Below, piece by piece: positions 24,655 through 46,502 of a stretch of DNA of 54,153 bases. Numbering within the stretch: position 1 is the stretch's first letter; the number at the start of each line of letters is the position of its first letter. Made by a program: the position numbers and the translations under genes. The notes below the pieces were generated by a model. That model saw only the letters and a list, made by a program, of their open reading frames with translations, did not search any database and was not told where the DNA came from. The DNA comes from Chloroflexaceae bacterium. Its GTDB lineage: Bacteria; Chloroflexota; Chloroflexia; Chloroflexales; Chloroflexaceae. The DNA is taken from the NCBI GenBank assembly GCA_028282325.1, contig JANQID010000104.1, forward strand, positions 1 through 54,153, given 5' to 3'.

Positions 24655-26391
24655 CTACGGCAAGCGTCGTATATCGAAACCTGAAAGCTGGCGCATAATG
24701 TCGAACGCTCCCTGCCCATCGGCAAGGGCGCGCGCCGCATTCGAGTGCGTGAAATACACATCGACCCGCGTACCGCTCGACAGGCCGCGGAAATGAATGC
24801 CAAAGACGCCGGCGGCCGCGTCATCCGTTGTGGTCAAATCAAGCGGCGGGTCATAGCCAATTCGGCCATCGGCATCGGCAGGTACGAGCCCGGGGAATAA
24901 CACATACGTACCGGTCGGATCCGTCACCCAGAATTCGAGATCCTCGTTCGGCAACAAGTTCTGGCCGCGCACCTGGAAGGTCGTTCCCACGCCGCCTTCT
25001 TGTGGCGTCACGCTGCCGTTTACATTCGCCGGGCGCGGCGTGCCGGGGCCGGCGACATAGTCGCTCGTGATCTTAAACGCGGCGGCATTGACAACGCTGC
25101 TGCGCACACCCTGCGCCGCCAGACTGTAGATTCCATCGGAGAGGCCCGCGCTGGAGAACTCTACCATAACAATACCATCGCTATCAAGGGTGACGGCGGA
25201 AGGATCAATCGGCGTGCTGGTATTATCGGCAGCGGTGATCCAACTGCTTACCGTCTCGTCCGCTTCATAGCCGACGGCTTGAAACAAGAAGAACGTTGGG
25301 GCGGGCGCGGCCAACGGCATAATGATCGCGTCGCCTTGCACAGGGAGCTGATCGTGCAGCAAGACTCCCAGCTTGTTCGGATCACCGGGCGGACTAGCCG
25401 CGGCGCCGGTAATCCGGAAATAGCCCGTCGCCTGGTTGCCGCTGCTCACGCCCTGGGCATTGAACGACCATATCCCTTCTATGAAACTGGGATCGGTCGT
25501 AACCGCCACATTCGCATCATCAATCGATCCCTGATCATCGGCCTTCACCTGCGAGTCAATGCCAACCGTCGATTGGTCCGGCGCAGTAAGCCAGACGCCC
25601 ACACTCTCGCCGGCGTTGAATCCATCGGCCTGGAATTGGAAAACCGTTCCGGGCGGCCCATTGTCGGGAACAACCTGGGCGTTGACATTCGACGGCAACG
25701 GCTCAACCGGCACAGGGTCAGGCGTGGGATTAGGCACAGGATCGATGGGCGCTTGATCGGGCGGCACCGGCGCGAGCAACTCCGGCGGCGCGAGTTGGCG
25801 ACCGAGGGCGCTGAGCAACACCCGCTCGCCGGGTGCGAACTCCGGCCAGTATTCAAAACGAGCACGCTCAAAATACTGCACCGTGTGCCACTCGCCATCT
25901 TCTAGCACTTCCTTGACTTCTTCACTAATCGGAAGCCCGAAAATGCGCTCTCCGCCGCGCGTTTCCCAAACTTCCTTAAACCCATACTGTAGGATGTGTT
26001 GCGTCTGCGGAAAATAGCGTCGTTGCTCAGTATCTTCAATCGGCGGAGCCTTGGGAAACTCCCGATCGGCGGTAATTTCCACACCCAGCATACCGAGTTC
26101 GATATACGCTTGCCCGCCTTGCTCGGTTAGTTCGAAGCGCGCCCGCTCGAAATATTGCACAACACGACCCTGTGTGACATATTCCTCGGTTATCGGGTAG
26201 CCAAAATTCAGGAGACCGTCATTGGCTTCCCAAAACGCCCGAAACTCTCCTTGAAGAAAATGTCCGGTTTCATAAAAATAGCGCGCCTCGGTCTGCGCCT
26301 GAGTTTGGGGTAAAGCAACGCCCATCAGAACCAGGATAAGCGCCATAATGCCGATCAGCGACAGCGGCCTGGGGGCAAGACGTTGGGCCAT
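24655..26391 (-). CDS. Secreted protein with LGFP-like ETGH repeats and Ig-like repeats
   Basis: 578 residues with a Sec signal peptide (hydrophobic run LIGIMALILVLMGVAL, cleavage likely after AQT). Two tandem units follow (about 38-105 and 120-200), each running ETGH/QTQH, FWE..GG, FGYP or FGLP, EE and YFERARFE. This pattern resembles the LGFP repeat of cell-wall-bound proteins. A Pro-rich linker (near 210-235) leads to three Ig-like units, each with a line such as GTVFQFQADGFNAGESVGVW. Function unknown; a surface or cell-wall protein is likely. Paralogous to the gene at 29559-30530. Start follows AGAGGAGG. Confidence 0.78.
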   Translation of the reverse strand: MAQRLAPRPLSLIGIMALILVLMGVALPQTQAQTEARYFYETGHFLQGEFRAFWEANDGLLNFGYPITEEYVTQGRVVQYFERARFELTEQGGQAYIELGMLGVEITADREFPKAPPIEDTEQRRYFPQTQHILQYGFKEVWETRGGERIFGLPISEEVKEVLEDGEWHTVQYFERARFEYWPEFAPGERVLLSALGRQLAPPELLAPVPPDQAPIDPVPNPTPDPVPVEPLPSNVNAQVVPDNGPPGTVFQFQADGFNAGESVGVWLTAPDQSTVGIDSQVKADDQGSIDDANVAVTTDPSFIEGIWSFNAQGVSSGNQATGYFRITGAAASPPGDPNKLGVLLHDQLPVQGDAIIMPLAAPAPTFFLFQAVGYEADETVSSWITAADNTSTPIDPSAVTLDSDGIVMVEFSSAGLSDGIYSLAAQGVRSSVVNAAAFKITSDYVAGPGTPRPANVNGSVTPQEGGVGTTFQVRGQNLLPNEDLEFWVTDPTGTYVLFPGLVPADADGRIGYDPPLDLTTTDDAAAGVFGIHFRGLSSGTRVDVYFTHSNAARALADGQGAFDIMRQLSGFDIRRLP

Positions 26392-28318: not shown

Positions 28319-28873
28319 ATGCTCGCCACCGAACTTCAACACGCTATCGCCGCGATCCACGCCGCCCCGCACAAGCTGGTGCTGGAATTCACCGGCGCGG
28401 GGAGTCTGGCGCTCTGGTGGCTGCACAGCGTCGCCGGTTCATCGCGCACGATCCTGGAGGCCGGCGACCGCTACGCCGCCGCATCGCTGCACGATCTGCT
28501 GGGCGAGGAGCCAGCGACGTTCGTCTCGGTTGACACCGCCATCGCCATGGCTCGACGCGCTTATGCGCGCGCGCGCCTGTTGAGCGACGCAAGTGAACCT
28601 CTGCTCGGCGTCGGCTGTACCGCAACCATCGCCACCGACAGAATCAAGCGCGGGGAGCATCGCTGCGCCATCGCGGTGCAGCATGCGCACGGCGGACGCG
28701 CCTATGCCGTGACGCTGGCCAAAGGACAACGCGACCGCCTCGGCGAGGAAACGTTGGTTAGCCAGTTACTGCTGCGCGCCATCATACGCGCGTGCAAGCC
28801 TGAGTTGCCCGCGCCCCTGGATCTGATCAATGACGAACAGGTGACGGAATATGAATTTCCCGCATCCGAGTAA
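28319..28873 (+). CDS. CinA-like protein (possible NMN amidohydrolase)
   Basis: 184 residues, about the size of a stand-alone CinA C-terminal domain. EFTGAGSLALWWLHSVAGSS matches the nucleophile-bearing helix start of CinA (usually ES.TGG with a following GSS), and LGVGCTATIATDRIKRGEHR fits the later GV.G.AGP loop. Known CinA domains deamidate nicotinamide mononucleotide. The active-site line is altered, so activity is not certain. The next gene starts 30 bases later and encodes a nucleotidyltransferase, and fused versions of these two domains exist in eukaryotes, which supports a joint role in pyridine nucleotide recycling (inference). Confidence 0.72.
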   Translation: MLATELQHAIAAIHAAPHKLVLEFTGAGSLALWWLHSVAGSSRTILEAGDRYAAASLHDLLGEEPATFVSVDTAIAMARRAYARARLLSDASEPLLGVGCTATIATDRIKRGEHRCAIAVQHAHGGRAYAVTLAKGQRDRLGEETLVSQLLLRAIIRACKPELPAPLDLINDEQVTEYEFPASE

Positions 28874-28902
28874 GATGCACACAGAGGGCAAGGAATGCAA
28901 AC

Positions 28903-29562
28903 GTGATGAGACCAGACAATCCACGTCGCCGTGAGACGACCGCCGGCAACCCTCTCCAAACCTTGAGCGCTGCCGTGGCTGAACTGGTGAAGGGCGAGCT
29001 GCAGACGATCACCGTGTACTCCGATGGTCGCTGGGCCAGTGAGCAGCCGGCGCGGGGCGCCATCCTATCGGGGGCGTTTAACCCCCTGCACGAAGGACAT
29101 ATCCGCCTGGCCGCCATCGCGGCGCGGCGCACAGGCTTGCCGATATTTTTTGAACTGCCGGTCGCCAACGCCGACAAAGGGCTGATTTCGGCGGAAGAAG
29201 TGCAGCGACGCCTGCGCCAGTTTCGCGACAAGCATCCGGTTCTGCTTTCACGAGCGCCGCTGTTCAGCCAGAAAGCCCGACTCTACCCAGACAGCGTGTT
29301 TGTGATCGGCTATGACACCGCCATTCGCATTGTCGCACCGCGCTACTACGACGGGGAAGCGGGCATGCTGGCGGCGTTCGCCAAGATCCGCGAGGCCGGA
29401 TGCCGCTTTCTGGTCGGCGGGCGGGTGCAGGATGACCGGTTTTGCACCCTGGCGAACATTGACCTGCCGCCCGCCATCCGCGACCTGTTCGACGGCTTGT
29501 CGGAACAGGAATTTCGGGCCGACCTGTCCTCAACCGAACTCCGGGCGATGGCGCACAGCTAG
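28903..29562 (+). CDS. NMNAT/cytidylyltransferase-like nucleotidyltransferase
   Basis: 219 residues. GAFNPLHEGHIRLAAIA is the (G)xFxPxHxGH motif of the HxGH nucleotidyltransferase superfamily, and SSTELRA near the end is the second nucleotide-binding motif (usually S[ST].[IL]R). The first 45 residues are a polar extension. With the CinA-like gene just upstream, adenylyl transfer to a nicotinate or nicotinamide mononucleotide is the likely reaction, but the substrate is not shown by sequence. GTG 28903 and ATG 28906 are equally good starts after AAGGA. Its TAG stop overlaps the stop of the convergent gene in a CTAG. Confidence 0.78.
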   Translation: MMRPDNPRRRETTAGNPLQTLSAAVAELVKGELQTITVYSDGRWASEQPARGAILSGAFNPLHEGHIRLAAIAARRTGLPIFFELPVANADKGLISAEEVQRRLRQFRDKHPVLLSRAPLFSQKARLYPDSVFVIGYDTAIRIVAPRYYDGEAGMLAAFAKIREAGCRFLVGGRVQDDRFCTLANIDLPPAIRDLFDGLSEQEFRADLSSTELRAMAHS

Positions 29563-30530
29563 CGTTGCAGACGGAACGATGCCGCCACAATCCTGCCGCT
29601 TGTAGTGCCTTGTCCAACCAGACTCCACTGTCCTTCGGGATCGTTAGCTTCGGTGCGGAAACCGATCAAGACGCCACCATCATCATCGGCGATAGCCTGG
29701 TAGGGCAGGGAGCGCACCCGCCCGTCCGGCAAATTCAGCCACATACTGACAAACTCGCCCGGCAGATAATTCCACGCCTGGAATCCAAGCACCGTACCCG
29801 GCGCGCTGGGGCTTGGATAAACGCGCCCGCTCGCAATCGTGTTGGGAATACTGGCGCACGTGCTGCTATCGCCCTCCGGCAACGGTCCTGACGGCGGCGC
29901 GTTGGGCGGCAAGCCGGGTCGAAGCTGGCATGGGGCTAAAGGCGTGCCAAGCAGACCAAGCTTTATCTGCGAACCGTGCAACTCAAAACGCGCCCGCTCG
30001 AAATATTGCACCGTGCGCTGCTGTCCATCGGGCAACAACTCCGGAGTCTCCTCGCTGAGCGGATAGCCGAACAGTTCCAGACCGCCCCGGCTTTCCCAAT
30101 AGCGCTTGAAGCTCCCTTGCAAGCTGTGACCGGTTTCAGGGAAATAGCGCCGGGAACTCGTATCACGAAACGGCGCAACCGGCGGAAATCCTAACCCGCG
30201 CACGGTCAACGTCTCCGCACCGATCCGGCCAAGCTGGACGATGCCCTGGCTGCCCTGTACAGTCAACTCAAAACGGGCGCGCTCAAAATGCTGCACGACT
30301 CTGCCGTCACTGTTGCGTACGTATTCTTCGGTGACCGGAAATCCAAAGACATCTAAGCCGCCGTGACGATCCCAGAATGAGCGAAACGCGCCGCCGAGAT
30401 AGTGCCCCGTTTCGGGGAAATAGACCGTCGGCGTCTGCGCATGCGTAACACCCTGTGACATTCCGCCCGCTAATATGCCGGCCACGAGCGCCAGCAGAAT
30501 CCATACCGATACGCATCGTCTTCGTTGCAT
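29559..30530 (-). CDS. Secreted protein with LGFP-like ETGH repeats, short paralogue
   Basis: 323 residues with a signal peptide (ILLALVAGILAGGM). Two units follow: PETGHYLGGAFRSFWDRHGG then FGFPVTEE...YFERARFEL type blocks at about 38-95, and PETGHSLQGSFKRYWESRGG then FGYPLSEE with a second FERARFEL at about 125-190. One Ig-like unit (GTVLGFQAWNYLPGEFVSMW) ends the protein. It is a shorter version of the 24655-26391 product, which has three Ig-like units. Likely exported and surface-bound; function unknown. The stop codon overlaps that of the convergent nucleotidyltransferase gene. Confidence 0.76.
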   Translation of the reverse strand: MQRRRCVSVWILLALVAGILAGGMSQGVTHAQTPTVYFPETGHYLGGAFRSFWDRHGGLDVFGFPVTEEYVRNSDGRVVQHFERARFELTVQGSQGIVQLGRIGAETLTVRGLGFPPVAPFRDTSSRRYFPETGHSLQGSFKRYWESRGGLELFGYPLSEETPELLPDGQQRTVQYFERARFELHGSQIKLGLLGTPLAPCQLRPGLPPNAPPSGPLPEGDSSTCASIPNTIASGRVYPSPSAPGTVLGFQAWNYLPGEFVSMWLNLPDGRVRSLPYQAIADDDGGVLIGFRTEANDPEGQWSLVGQGTTSGRIVAASFRLQR

Positions 30531-43046: not shown

Positions 43047-43763
43047 CTACGCCAGCTTTGCGACAATTTCAATACCGTTCAGTGCCATATGATGCAGGAA
43101 GAGCATATGATGCAAATCGCCTTCATGGGCCTTGATGCCGAGATCGCGAGCGGTGCAGACCGGTGTATCGAATGTATCAACCGTCGCCGCCGGGACTATC
43201 ACGCGCCGTTGCATATGAAGCGCGTTGGCTTCGAGGCGCAGATGCATCGCCGCATTGTAAACGCACAGATCGGTGCAGTCGCCGATGACGACGAATGTTT
43301 CAAGCTGGGGATAGTCGCGCATCCAGGCAGCCAATTCGGTGCCGATGAAAGCACTCAACGAGTTCTTGCTAATCACCGTCATTTCGCCAGCGAACGGCAA
43401 GTTGCTCAGTTCAACGATAGTCTGACTCTCCGGCGTTCCGGCGATACAATGCGGCGGATAGGACTGAAATTCGGGTGCATCGGGATTGTGCGCGTCTTGG
43501 GCCAACACCAACGCACGTACGCCCAGATCATATGCACGTTGCAGCGCATCGGCGACCGAGGCGGACAACGCGCCTACCCGCGGGCTAGACAACGGACCTT
43601 CTTTGCAGAAACCGTTAATCATATCAATCGAGAAAACCGCTGTTCTTTCCGGCGCCGCCCCTACGAGATCGGACAGTTGCAATTCCGGCAAGTTGTCGTA
43701 CCATTCGTCGAGATAATGGAGAAACGCCCGCGATCGCTCGACTAGACTGAGCCTGTTTGTCAT
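43047..43763 (-). CDS. Nicotinamidase-like isochorismatase-family hydrolase
   Basis: 238 residues. The cysteine hydrolase triad is visible as Asp in FSIDMINGFCKEGPL, Lys in VISKNSLSAFIGT and Cys in VIGDCTDLCVYNAAMHL. Nicotinamidase (nicotinamide to nicotinate) is the best guess because nadE and an NrtR regulator lie directly upstream; the isochorismatase family has other activities, and the metal-binding His set is not clear to me. The ATG at 43763 follows AAAGGAGGTG by 4 bases, and the gene follows nadE by 62 bases. Confidence 0.82.
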   Translation of the reverse strand: MTNRLSLVERSRAFLHYLDEWYDNLPELQLSDLVGAAPERTAVFSIDMINGFCKEGPLSSPRVGALSASVADALQRAYDLGVRALVLAQDAHNPDAPEFQSYPPHCIAGTPESQTIVELSNLPFAGEMTVISKNSLSAFIGTELAAWMRDYPQLETFVVIGDCTDLCVYNAAMHLRLEANALHMQRRVIVPAATVDTFDTPVCTARDLGIKAHEGDLHHMLFLHHMALNGIEIVAKLA

Positions 43764-43825
43764 TGTCACCTCCTTTGGTACAAGATCACTGCGGCGCATA
43801 TCGTTGCGCCACGCATTCGCGCAGA

Positions 43826-45688
43826 TCAAAAATCGAGCGGTCGGAGATAGTACTCGCCAATCGCCGTCGAACTGAGCATTGCCGTGCTTGGCAAATGGCG
43901 CTTCCAATGCGTGCCATCGAGTCGGCGTTTAACCAGGCCGACATCATCCGCCGGAAAACCCAGAGCGATCAGCCGATCAACGCTATAGCCCTGCAACAAG
44001 AAATGGAGAATGCGATCGGCCCTCGGATAGCTGATGCCAATATCGCCCTCATCGGTCTGGCCCACGATCAAATCGGCGCTAGCCGGCTTGTCTACAATGA
44101 CCGACGGCACGCCGACGTGGCGGGCCAGTTGCCAAACTTGCGTTTTGAACAGATCGCCCAGCGGATTAACCGGCGGCGAATCATCGGCATGCCAGGTGTA
44201 ATATCCAAACAGGCGCTCGGTTTTGTTGCCGGTGCCGATGGGCAAATGGCGTAATTTCTGCGAATGGTCGAAGAGGATGATCATCCGCATACGCGCCATA
44301 ATGTTGCCTTTGCGATGCGCGTTCATCTCCGGATCCAGGTTGGCGTAGCTATCGACGGCGGCGCTGATATAGATCGTCGCTGCGCGCATGCCAAGCTGGT
44401 CGATGCATAACTGGGCATGCTCCAGACTCTCGCGGCTGCTGGTGCGATAGGGCAAACGCAGCGCCAGAACATGCTCAGGTCCAAACGCTTCGGCGCAGAG
44501 GAATGCGGTCAATGCAGAGTCAACACCGCCCGACAGCGCCAGAACTACGTCGCGGAAGCCGCGCCGTCGCATCACTTCATCGCGGAGGAACTCGATCAAC
44601 CAGCGCCGCGCCAGTTCCGGGTTCATCTGCAAAATGGCGTCGGATTCCGGATCGAACGCTGTCGCGCTCCATACCGGCAGATGCACCGTACGTCGATCGG
44701 CGGCGGCAGACGACTTAGCCTTACGCTGCACATCTTCCGATCGTGTATGCGCCGCGTCCCAACGAACTACCGTCGGCTCGTGGCGGGCGGCGCGCGCAAT
44801 CTCAGCCTGGATATGCGGCAACATCGTTTGCAAATCGGCCAACAGCGGCGTATCAGCGCGGGCCAGCGGCAAATCATCAAGGTCGAGCGCAGCGCAGATC
44901 AACGCATCATCCCACAGCGGCCCGCTCGCCAGAAGCTCGCCGCGCGGCCCCATCACGAAAGAACCGCCGGCAAAAGCTTTGCCGCCTTCCGAGCCGGTCA
45001 ACTGCGCCAGCACGACAAACACCCCCTGCTCGTCGGCGATTCGGCGCGCCAGGTCCTCCCAGTGCTCAACATTGCCAGGCCGGTCGCCGGAATTGCCCCG
45101 CGCGGGCGAAGCGCTAACCAGAAACACGACCTGTGCGCCGTCGAGTGCGGCGACCAGACCGCTGACATTGTGCCAGGCGTCTTCGCAAATCAGTATCGCC
45201 GCGCGGCCATAGGCGGCGTCGAACGCAGCGATCTGGCGTCCGGCCTCGACAAAACGCGCCTCATCGAAGACGCCGTAGGTCGGCAAAAACACCTTGCGAT
45301 GCACATGGCGAATGGGGCGATAGCCATCTGGATGCGCCGACTGAATTTGAGCTGTTGATCCCAGCGTTGCATAGAGCGCGCTGTTGTAGAAGTGATCGCG
45401 GTAGCGCTCATAGAACCCGACCGCAATATCGAGGCATGGCGCATCGTTCCCGCAGATGTCGAGATATGCTGCATTGAGATCGGCGTAGACCTGACCGGCC
45501 GGACGCGCAACTTCGCGCACGCCGCCCTCCAGAAAATAGCCGTCCAGGATCGTTTCCGGCAGAGCCAGTACATCTGGATAGACTGCCAGCGTCGGAAGCT
45601 GCGCAAAGATATCGCCGATGCGAGCGATGTTCGCGGCGTAATCGCCCTTCCTGGGGCGGATTTGTCCAATCGTTACGTTGACTTGCAT
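43826..45688 (-). CDS. nadE: Glutamine-dependent NAD(+) synthetase
   Basis: 620 residues. N-terminal nitrilase-type glutaminase domain: VLALPETILDGYF with the Glu, RHVHRKVFLPTYGVFDE with the Lys, and ILICEDAWHN with the catalytic Cys. C-terminal synthetase domain with LALSGGVDSALTAFL (ATP pyrophosphatase loop), then TGNKTERLFGYYTWH and PRADRILHFLLQG. It makes NAD from nicotinate adenine dinucleotide, using ammonia from glutamine. ATG at 45688 follows GGAGGAAGG. TATAAT at 45721-45726 (minus) may be a separate -10, with no good -35. Confidence 0.97.
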   Translation of the reverse strand: MQVNVTIGQIRPRKGDYAANIARIGDIFAQLPTLAVYPDVLALPETILDGYFLEGGVREVARPAGQVYADLNAAYLDICGNDAPCLDIAVGFYERYRDHFYNSALYATLGSTAQIQSAHPDGYRPIRHVHRKVFLPTYGVFDEARFVEAGRQIAAFDAAYGRAAILICEDAWHNVSGLVAALDGAQVVFLVSASPARGNSGDRPGNVEHWEDLARRIADEQGVFVVLAQLTGSEGGKAFAGGSFVMGPRGELLASGPLWDDALICAALDLDDLPLARADTPLLADLQTMLPHIQAEIARAARHEPTVVRWDAAHTRSEDVQRKAKSSAAADRRTVHLPVWSATAFDPESDAILQMNPELARRWLIEFLRDEVMRRRGFRDVVLALSGGVDSALTAFLCAEAFGPEHVLALRLPYRTSSRESLEHAQLCIDQLGMRAATIYISAAVDSYANLDPEMNAHRKGNIMARMRMIILFDHSQKLRHLPIGTGNKTERLFGYYTWHADDSPPVNPLGDLFKTQVWQLARHVGVPSVIVDKPASADLIVGQTDEGDIGISYPRADRILHFLLQGYSVDRLIALGFPADDVGLVKRRLDGTHWKRHLPSTAMLSSTAIGEYYLRPLDF

Positions 45689-45773
45689 AGCGCCTTCCTC
45701 CGCGCCAGCGGTGTACGCGTATTATACACGCTAGCAGCATTGCGTTGAGTTGACCTGACACAATAGGGGCAGG

Positions 45774-46502
45774 CTATTCATGCTTCACATCGACTCGATC
45801 TTCGCGCCAACGAAACACAAACTGCTTTTCGTGGTTGCGATCGCCCTTGAAACGCCACAGGTGAGTGGGGCGTCCACGCCCTTCGCGTACGAGCGGCGTC
45901 TTTTCCAGGATGTCAGCTTCCTTAATCTTGCGATAGAAGTTGCCTTTGTCGAGTTTTTCGCCCAGGATCTGCTCATAGATATGCTTCAATTCAAGGATGC
46001 TGAAAACCTCCGGCAGCAATTGAAATGCCAGAGTCGTATACTCTAGCTTGGAGCGCAGACGCGAAATGGCATAGTCCAGAATATGGTCGTGATCGAATGC
46101 CAGCGGCCTCGGCAACTCGCGCACCGGGAACCAGCGCACATCGGTGCTCTCTTCGCTCACGCGCAGGCGTTGCACATCGGCGCGAACCAACGCAATATAA
46201 GCGACGCTGATTACCCGCGTACGCGGATCGCGATCTGGACTGCCAAACGTGAAGAGTTGCTCCAGGTAAACGTCGCGCACGCCGGTTTCTTCTTCGAGTT
46301 CCCGCCGCGCCGCCTGATCGAGCGACTCGTCCATATTGATGAAGCCGCCGGGGATCGCCCAATAACCCTCGAATGGCCAGCGCCGTCGTTTGACTAGCAG
46401 AACATGCAACTCGCGATTCTGAAGAGTAAAAATCACCACATCCACAGTTACGGAAGGGCGATCATAGCGCGTGGGATCATATGTTGCGGCGTTCTCCTCC
46501 AT
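45774..46502 (-). CDS. nrtR: NrtR-type Nudix regulator of NAD metabolism
   Basis: 242 residues. The Nudix box is complete, G53-x5-E59-x7-R67-E68-L-x-E71-E72-x-G74, within GGFINMDESLDQAARRELEE. The C-terminal 90 residues form the winged helix of NrtR (FSILELKHIYEQILGEKLDK, then NFYRKIKEADILEKTP). NrtR represses NAD salvage genes and is released by ADP-ribose. An intact catalytic box leaves open that it also hydrolyses its effector. Beside nadE and the hydrolase, this is its expected place. A matching palindromic operator covers its own start region. ATG follows AGGAG. Confidence 0.9.
   Translation of the reverse strand: MEENAATYDPTRYDRPSVTVDVVIFTLQNRELHVLLVKRRRWPFEGYWAIPGGFINMDESLDQAARRELEEETGVRDVYLEQLFTFGSPDRDPRTRVISVAYIALVRADVQRLRVSEESTDVRWFPVRELPRPLAFDHDHILDYAISRLRSKLEYTTLAFQLLPEVFSILELKHIYEQILGEKLDKGNFYRKIKEADILEKTPLVREGRGRPTHLWRFKGDRNHEKQFVFRWREDRVDVKHE

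Follow-up and report, generated by a model that had tools for sequence, protein, structure and literature searches.

A CinA-like protein without its catalytic dyad and its partner nucleotidyltransferase: a candidate NMN-recycling module in Chloroflexota and other bacteria

Gene pair and structural assignment of its products

The window analysed here, a 54,153-nucleotide stretch of a Chloroflexaceae genome (contig JANQID010000104.1), carries two neighbouring genes on its forward strand, in the arrangement that an earlier note on this DNA had described. The first encodes a CinA/PncC-fold protein of 184 amino acids (P0001; 28319–28873, +) that is predicted to be catalytically dead and to bind the phosphate of NMN, and the second an HxGH nucleotidyltransferase of NadD/NMNAT fold with 219 amino acids (P0002; 28903–29562, +) that is a predicted NMN adenylyltransferase. 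The 29 bases between them (28874–28902, +) correspond to the inter-domain linker of fused relatives, and P0002 starts at a GTG codon at position 28903 or, alternatively, at an ATG codon at 28906 (+). Two similar secreted-looking proteins encoded on the minus strand (24655–26391 and 29559–30530) flank the pair and a ComEC-like gene, which lie on the opposite strand; the second of these proteins showed a weak match to the LGFP repeat.

As a single sequence P0001 gave no match to Pfam, NCBIfam or PDB sequences, and PF02464 was not reached above its cut-off, leaving the protein with no family assigned in the Pfam search. A profile built from 18 P0001-family sequences found the CinA structures 4ct8 (E 7e-4) and 2a9s (E 2e-3) as its first matches, and an AlphaFold model of P0001 (pLDDT 91.4, pTM 0.90) superposed on 2a9s with a Z of 17.7 (rmsd 2.7 over 153 residues). 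The CinA-like name originally given to this frame was therefore confirmed by both family profile and model. PF02464 was matched by three of twelve fused relatives (E up to 0.01; best E 5.7e-6).

P0002 matched PF01467 above cut-off (E 7.4e-8) and contains the catalytic HEGH motif (29089–29100, +) and the ATP-binding SSTELR motif (SxxxxR; 29527–29544, +), in agreement with its earlier designation as an HxGH nucleotidyltransferase. Curated NadD models matched weakly, with the TIGR00482 equivalog giving 19 bits against a cut-off of 112.45. All 112 transferase relatives possessed HxGH or HxAH (98 by pattern and 14 by eye, one with an unreadable residue) and 111 of them possessed SSxxxR. A fused orthologue of 385 amino acids (L004) was modelled from 12 sequences (pLDDT 88.9, pTM 0.78), and its residues 1–157 superposed on 2a9s (Z 18.0, rmsd 2.2, 148 residues). 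The closest solved folds of its transferase domain (residues 205–378) were mostly NaMN-specific NadD enzymes, the best being B. anthracis NadD 3e27 (Z 12.4, rmsd 3.0, 150 residues), followed by human NMNAT with NMN, 1gzu (Z 11.0, rmsd 3.4, 162 residues). As modelled, the transferase fold does not discriminate between NMN and NaMN. P0002 shares with NadD/NMNAT (TIGR00482, PF01467) this fold and the HxGH and SxxxxR motifs, but differs from NadD in scoring far under the TIGR00482 cut-off, in coexisting with a canonical NadD and in its fusion, among most relatives, with a PncC-like domain.

The catalytic and ligand-binding positions of the CinA-like half were read against characterised enzymes. 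In A. tumefaciens CinA, as given in passages of PMC5384747, catalysis depends on S31 and K63, whose alanine mutants are dead, the NMN phosphate is held by G46, S48, Y58 and R145, and both mechanisms proposed for PncC require Lys63. In characterised PncC, a single mutation at the Ser or at the Lys is enough to remove activity (passages of PMC5384747 and PMC8231969). Passages of PMC8231969 also describe the PncC mutants S29A and K61Q as inactive and still able to bind NMN, K61Q as showing no significant NaMN binding, and Y56A and R142A as showing no NMN binding. We equated S29, K61, Y56 and R142 of that enzyme with S31, K63, Y58 and R145, where the Y56/Y58 correspondence is stated in PMC5384747 and the rest follow from offset and motif.

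Among 111 distinct CinA-like domains (loci L001–L147), 110 were readable at the scored columns. The K63 position was occupied by Leu (60), Met (26), Phe (12), Val (5), Arg (4), Ile (2) or Thr (1) and never by Lys, and the S31 position by Ala (61), Thr (37) or Ser (12), so that Ser was absent in 98. In P0001 these positions are L57 (28487–28489, +) and T25 (28391–28393, +), which substantiates the altered active-site line that had been noticed in this protein. The C32 position was Gly in all 110. The phosphate clamp was kept almost throughout, with G46 in 110/110, Ser (106) or Thr (4) at S48, Y58 in 110/110 and R145 in 109/110; the P0001 counterparts are G40 and S42 within the codons G40-S41-S42 (28436–28444, +), Y52 (28472–28474, +) and R140 (28736–28738, +). 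The AGP loop is replaced by a loop with T/S-D-R and Gly, in which T106, D107, R108 and G112 are conserved, and the T105 position was Thr in 96 of the 110 domains. Loss of the dyad together with retention of the clamp indicates a CinA-like family relieved of the needs of catalysis and still held to those of NMN binding, and an amidase function of the CinA-like protein is unlikely on this alignment. P0001 thus resembles PncC, or the CinA C-terminal domain (PF02464; A. tumefaciens 2a9s, T. thermophilus 4ct8), in fold and in four phosphate-binding positions, but it lacks the Ser/Lys dyad, has the AGP loop replaced, belongs to a family joined to an adenylyltransferase and is missed by the Pfam model.

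Fusion, fission and linkage of the two halves

The survey covered 301 genomes, namely the window genome and 300 from its phylum, Chloroflexota. Relatives of P0001 were found in 48 genomes and relatives of P0002 in 77, from which two weak P0001 matches (G024, G051) and 30 genomes with weak P0002 matches alone (E 3e-11 to 9e-4) were set aside. Ten loci fetched from these 30 genomes (L170–L179, other Chloroflexota) encode a related transferase family, mostly in frames of 260–400 amino acids, and were rejected as module members as they have no CinA-like domain; L179 lies within a longer frame.

The module was present in 47 of the 301 genomes, as a fused gene in 26, as adjacent or overlapping halves in three (the window, G095, G199), as unlinked genes in 17 and as the transferase alone in one. 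Fusion was checked by translation in 14 cases and, for the other 12, by finding frames of the same length at adjoining positions (G186 truncated at a contig end). All 17 unlinked cases fall in the window's own family, whose 20 genomes otherwise comprise one adjacent pair (the window), one fusion and one transferase alone, and 19 of the 20 retain the CinA-like half. In single-contig genomes the two genes stand 0.8 Mb (G232), 2.9 Mb (G115) and 3.9 Mb (G131) apart according to record coordinates. The transferase alone is that of G012, where profile search also found no CinA-like partner, which suggests that the partner is dispensable in some cases; this transferase (L051) sits on a longer branch of the transferase tree.

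How often the two genes are neighbours or fused had been proposed as a check on their association. In most relatives the halves form one open frame, which argues that the pairing exceeds chance and sustains the earlier suggestion that the two proteins belong together; conserved adjacency of separate genes did not hold in the window's family, where the window is the one adjacent case among 20. Scanning species genomes with an alignment of the fused form gave at least 326 confirmed loci, of which 80 were kept, from Chloroflexota, Planctomycetota, Trueperaceae, Gemmatimonadota and one MAG each of Myxococcales, Rokuibacteriota and Latescibacterota. One fused-gene match (L230; G309:C52:9582-10715) contains a single in-frame TGA.

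In a tree of 112 distinct transferase domains (92 fused, 20 split), made by a quick method that left 49 of 109 inner branches open and placed L026 on a long branch, the split forms were nested among the fused ones with at least three changes, and the direction from fused to split follows from this nesting alone. The N-terminus of P0002 retains residues that form the linker in fused proteins. Together, the nesting and the retained linker residues point to fission within the linker, and the window genes are best read as a two-domain protein that has split in two.

NAD pathway context and relation to canonical CinA/PncC

A different contig of the window genome encodes a canonical NadD (G000:C46:117844-118422), and TIGR00482 was matched in 299 of the 301 genomes, the window genome included, which rules out the module as a replacement of NadD. 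One of the two genomes that gave no TIGR00482 match (G141; L022, L053) carries a fused module; either that module may handle NaMN as well, or the genome may be incompletely assembled. No PF02464 protein was found in the window genome, and NadM (TIGR01527) gave no match there and none above cut-off in 31 family genomes. According to passages of PMC3680494, bacteria recycle the NMN that arises from NAD consumption by PncC or NadM. With NadD present and both PncC and NadM absent, the window genome would need another use of NMN; by the same comparison a further enzyme for NaMN would be superfluous and one for NMN would not.

An NAD cluster at 43047–46502 on the minus strand encodes an isochorismatase-like protein (a possible nicotinamidase), NadE and an NrtR-type regulator. 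NadE, whose presence elsewhere in the window had been noted correctly, is glutamine-dependent (43826–45688, minus strand), and the regulator is a Nudix/winged-helix protein. The gene pair lies 14 kb from nadE on the opposite strand, and an operon with nadE, nrtR and the isochorismatase-like gene at 43–46.5 kb found no support. Relatives of these three proteins (E up to 1e-10) were found in none of the 80 kept module loci, many of which end at contig ends.

PF02464 was found in 248 of the 301 genomes. Canonical CinA was present in 0/47 module genomes compared with 244/254 module-free genomes (Fisher p 1.6e-45, a value that treats genomes as independent, which because of kinship they are not). 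Six family codes contain the module (f1, f3, f18, f30, f45, f59), and canonical CinA is missing from all six; the order of the window genome also includes two families (f2, f4) that have CinA and not the module. Weak PF02464 matches (2e-6 to 3e-4) in four module genomes (G090, G202, G252, G259) are consistent with the fused protein itself. Neither CinA nor the module was found in ten genomes (G033, G064, G096, G110, G118, G144, G145, G146, G173, G264), and a profile search of these ten found no hidden CinA-like domain.

Among the 80 kept module genomes PF02464 was matched in 30 of 50 and in 25 of 30, some matches being the fused protein itself, and simply scoring genomes for the CinA family is therefore too coarse. 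A residue-level check restores the exclusion pattern that family membership alone misses. Of 103 CinA copies read in these genomes (three by eye), a single one kept both S31 and K63, and 79 of the 80 genomes had no CinA with an intact dyad; the exception (L151) occurs in a Myxococcales MAG (G306) beside the fused protein (L117). CinA copies in Dehalococcoidia module genomes were otherwise intact but carried S31A (often with C32D) or K63Q, those in Planctomycetota module genomes carried S31G, and the remaining copies were decayed to a degree that makes column assignment unreliable. Module-free Chloroflexota controls kept both S31 and K63 in 33/33 genomes (G085 by eye), these being 30 listed loci plus the three best, that is, better-scoring matches and not a random draw.

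The same pattern was seen in a sample of 119 Planctomycetota genomes, where PF02464 was matched in 111 and the fused protein found in four, with many weaker profile matches to the latter set aside, several of which were ordinary CinA proteins. Every one of the 43 module-free genomes examined, comprising the 30 best-scoring and 13 from the low end, had an intact copy, and five also had a decayed second copy. The four module genomes had S31G (G309, G355), a decayed copy (G457) or no copy (G402). Replacement of PncC by the module is well supported by these comparisons of sequence.

A candidate route from NMN to NAD

We consider it probable, with appreciable room for doubt, that the module recycles NMN straight to NAD in place of NMN deamidase, with the dead half binding NMN. 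NMN would arise from NAD-consuming reactions such as that of NAD-dependent DNA ligase, and the C-terminal NadD/NMNAT-type domain would adenylylate it (NMN + ATP -> NAD + PPi), a direct route standing in for the succession of PncC, NadD and NadE. The N-terminal PncC-derived domain, with its Ser/Lys dyad gone and its NMN-phosphate clamp kept, would bind NMN and either deliver it or switch the transferase on as NMN rises, and split halves would act jointly as two proteins that probably associate. NMN as the substrate, its direct adenylylation, its binding by the CinA-like half and complex formation are what we infer from the domain and residue patterns; the partnership of the two proteins and their link to NAD are strongly supported. 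That link, which the earlier note had placed in pyridine-nucleotide recycling, is strengthened by the exclusion with intact PncC and by the nearest folds of both halves, which are pyridine-nucleotide enzymes.

The same two observations bear on the alternative that the transferase uses another nucleotide or cofactor precursor, bound by the CinA-like half, with only an indirect link to PncC. The scores of the curated NadD models far under their cut-offs and the remodelled ribose-contacting loop of the CinA-like domain would suit such a substrate; complementarity with an NMN-specific enzyme at the level of the active site, seen in two phyla, and the nearest folds of both halves speak against it, and we regard it as unlikely.

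Slightly less likely again is the scheme originally proposed for these genes, in which a CinA-like protein of changed chemistry would turn NMN into NaMN, from which the transferase would then supply NadE with NaAD. For a module that takes over from PncC, keeping to PncC's reaction would be the least elaborate solution, and the conserved loop residues T106, D107, R108 and G112, together with the frequent Thr at the T105 position, could form a new catalytic site. However, Lys63, which both mechanisms in the cited passages of PMC5384747 require, is lost in 110/110 homologous domains and Ser31 in 98/110, which counts against conversion of NMN to NaMN by this protein, and canonical NadD already handles NaMN, leaving no need for a second NaMN enzyme to feed nadE. 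Direct adenylylation is preferred to altered deamidation because the catalytic residues are lost, NadD is present and a Lys-lacking PncC mutant prefers NMN. The other possibility raised in the earlier note, a non-catalytic CinA-like protein serving the transferase, fits the lost dyad and kept clamp better than a deamidase does.

Least likely is a structural or relic CinA-like half beside a transferase that alone adenylylates NMN or NaMN, as the partnerless transferase of G012 would allow, against which stand the retention of that half in 19 of 20 family genomes (17 of them unlinked) and its nearly invariant ligand clamp.

If direct recycling of NMN is correct, the predicted reaction is that of NadM, a bacterial enzyme that can accompany or replace PncC and likewise converts NMN to NAD in one step; NadM is fused to a Nudix domain in some species (passages of PMC3680494), whereas the transferase of the module is paired with a CinA-like domain. 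We put at somewhat better than even the broader proposal of a third bacterial NMN route beside PncC and NadM/NadR, namely a pseudo-deamidase, evolved from PncC and binding NMN, that regulates or supplies an NMN adenylyltransferase. In the presence of such a module an active PncC would become dispensable or harmful and be repeatedly lost, or inactivated at one catalytic residue, and the window enzyme would be a split form that works in trans. A search of titles and abstracts, with most subscription journals outside its reach, found no bacterial CinA-transferase fusion or pair, which is weak evidence of absence. Plant members of PTHR31285 fuse a CinA-like domain to a transferase. This family, which we take to hold yeast Pof1 and the plant fused proteins At2g01220 and At3g27610, may be kin to the module. 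Passages of PMC13191266 describe yeast Pof1, whose motifs are T/HxxH and SxxxxR, as an NMNAT specific for NMN; should the PTHR31285 kinship hold, it would be the assayed protein closest to the module. A cyanobacterial NMNAT-C (PMC13036487) was set aside as a different NMNAT by its description alone.

Such a route, if true, would explain NMN recycling without an active NMN deamidase in many Chloroflexota, Planctomycetota and other bacteria, and would turn an unannotated pair into a testable enzyme-plus-sensor model. The module could also offer a bacterial model for eukaryotic proteins of this kind, among them yeast Pof1. The many CinA-family matches that lack the catalytic dyad affect automatic annotation as NMN deamidase.

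Several such copies form recognisable sets. Single-domain CinA proteins with S31A (often with C32D) in an otherwise intact site (L157, L159, L160, L162, L164, L191, L293–L306, L317) and those with K63Q (L190, L192, L195, L198, L308, L309 and most of L318–L333) come from Dehalococcoidia, SAR202 and related MAGs. By their likeness to laboratory mutants that bind NMN, these S31A and K63Q copies may be NMN sensors. A further set consists of two-domain Planctomycetota CinA proteins with S31G and T105V, usually C32V, and an intact clamp (L148, L149, L150, L152, L156, L272), all from genomes carrying the fused module.
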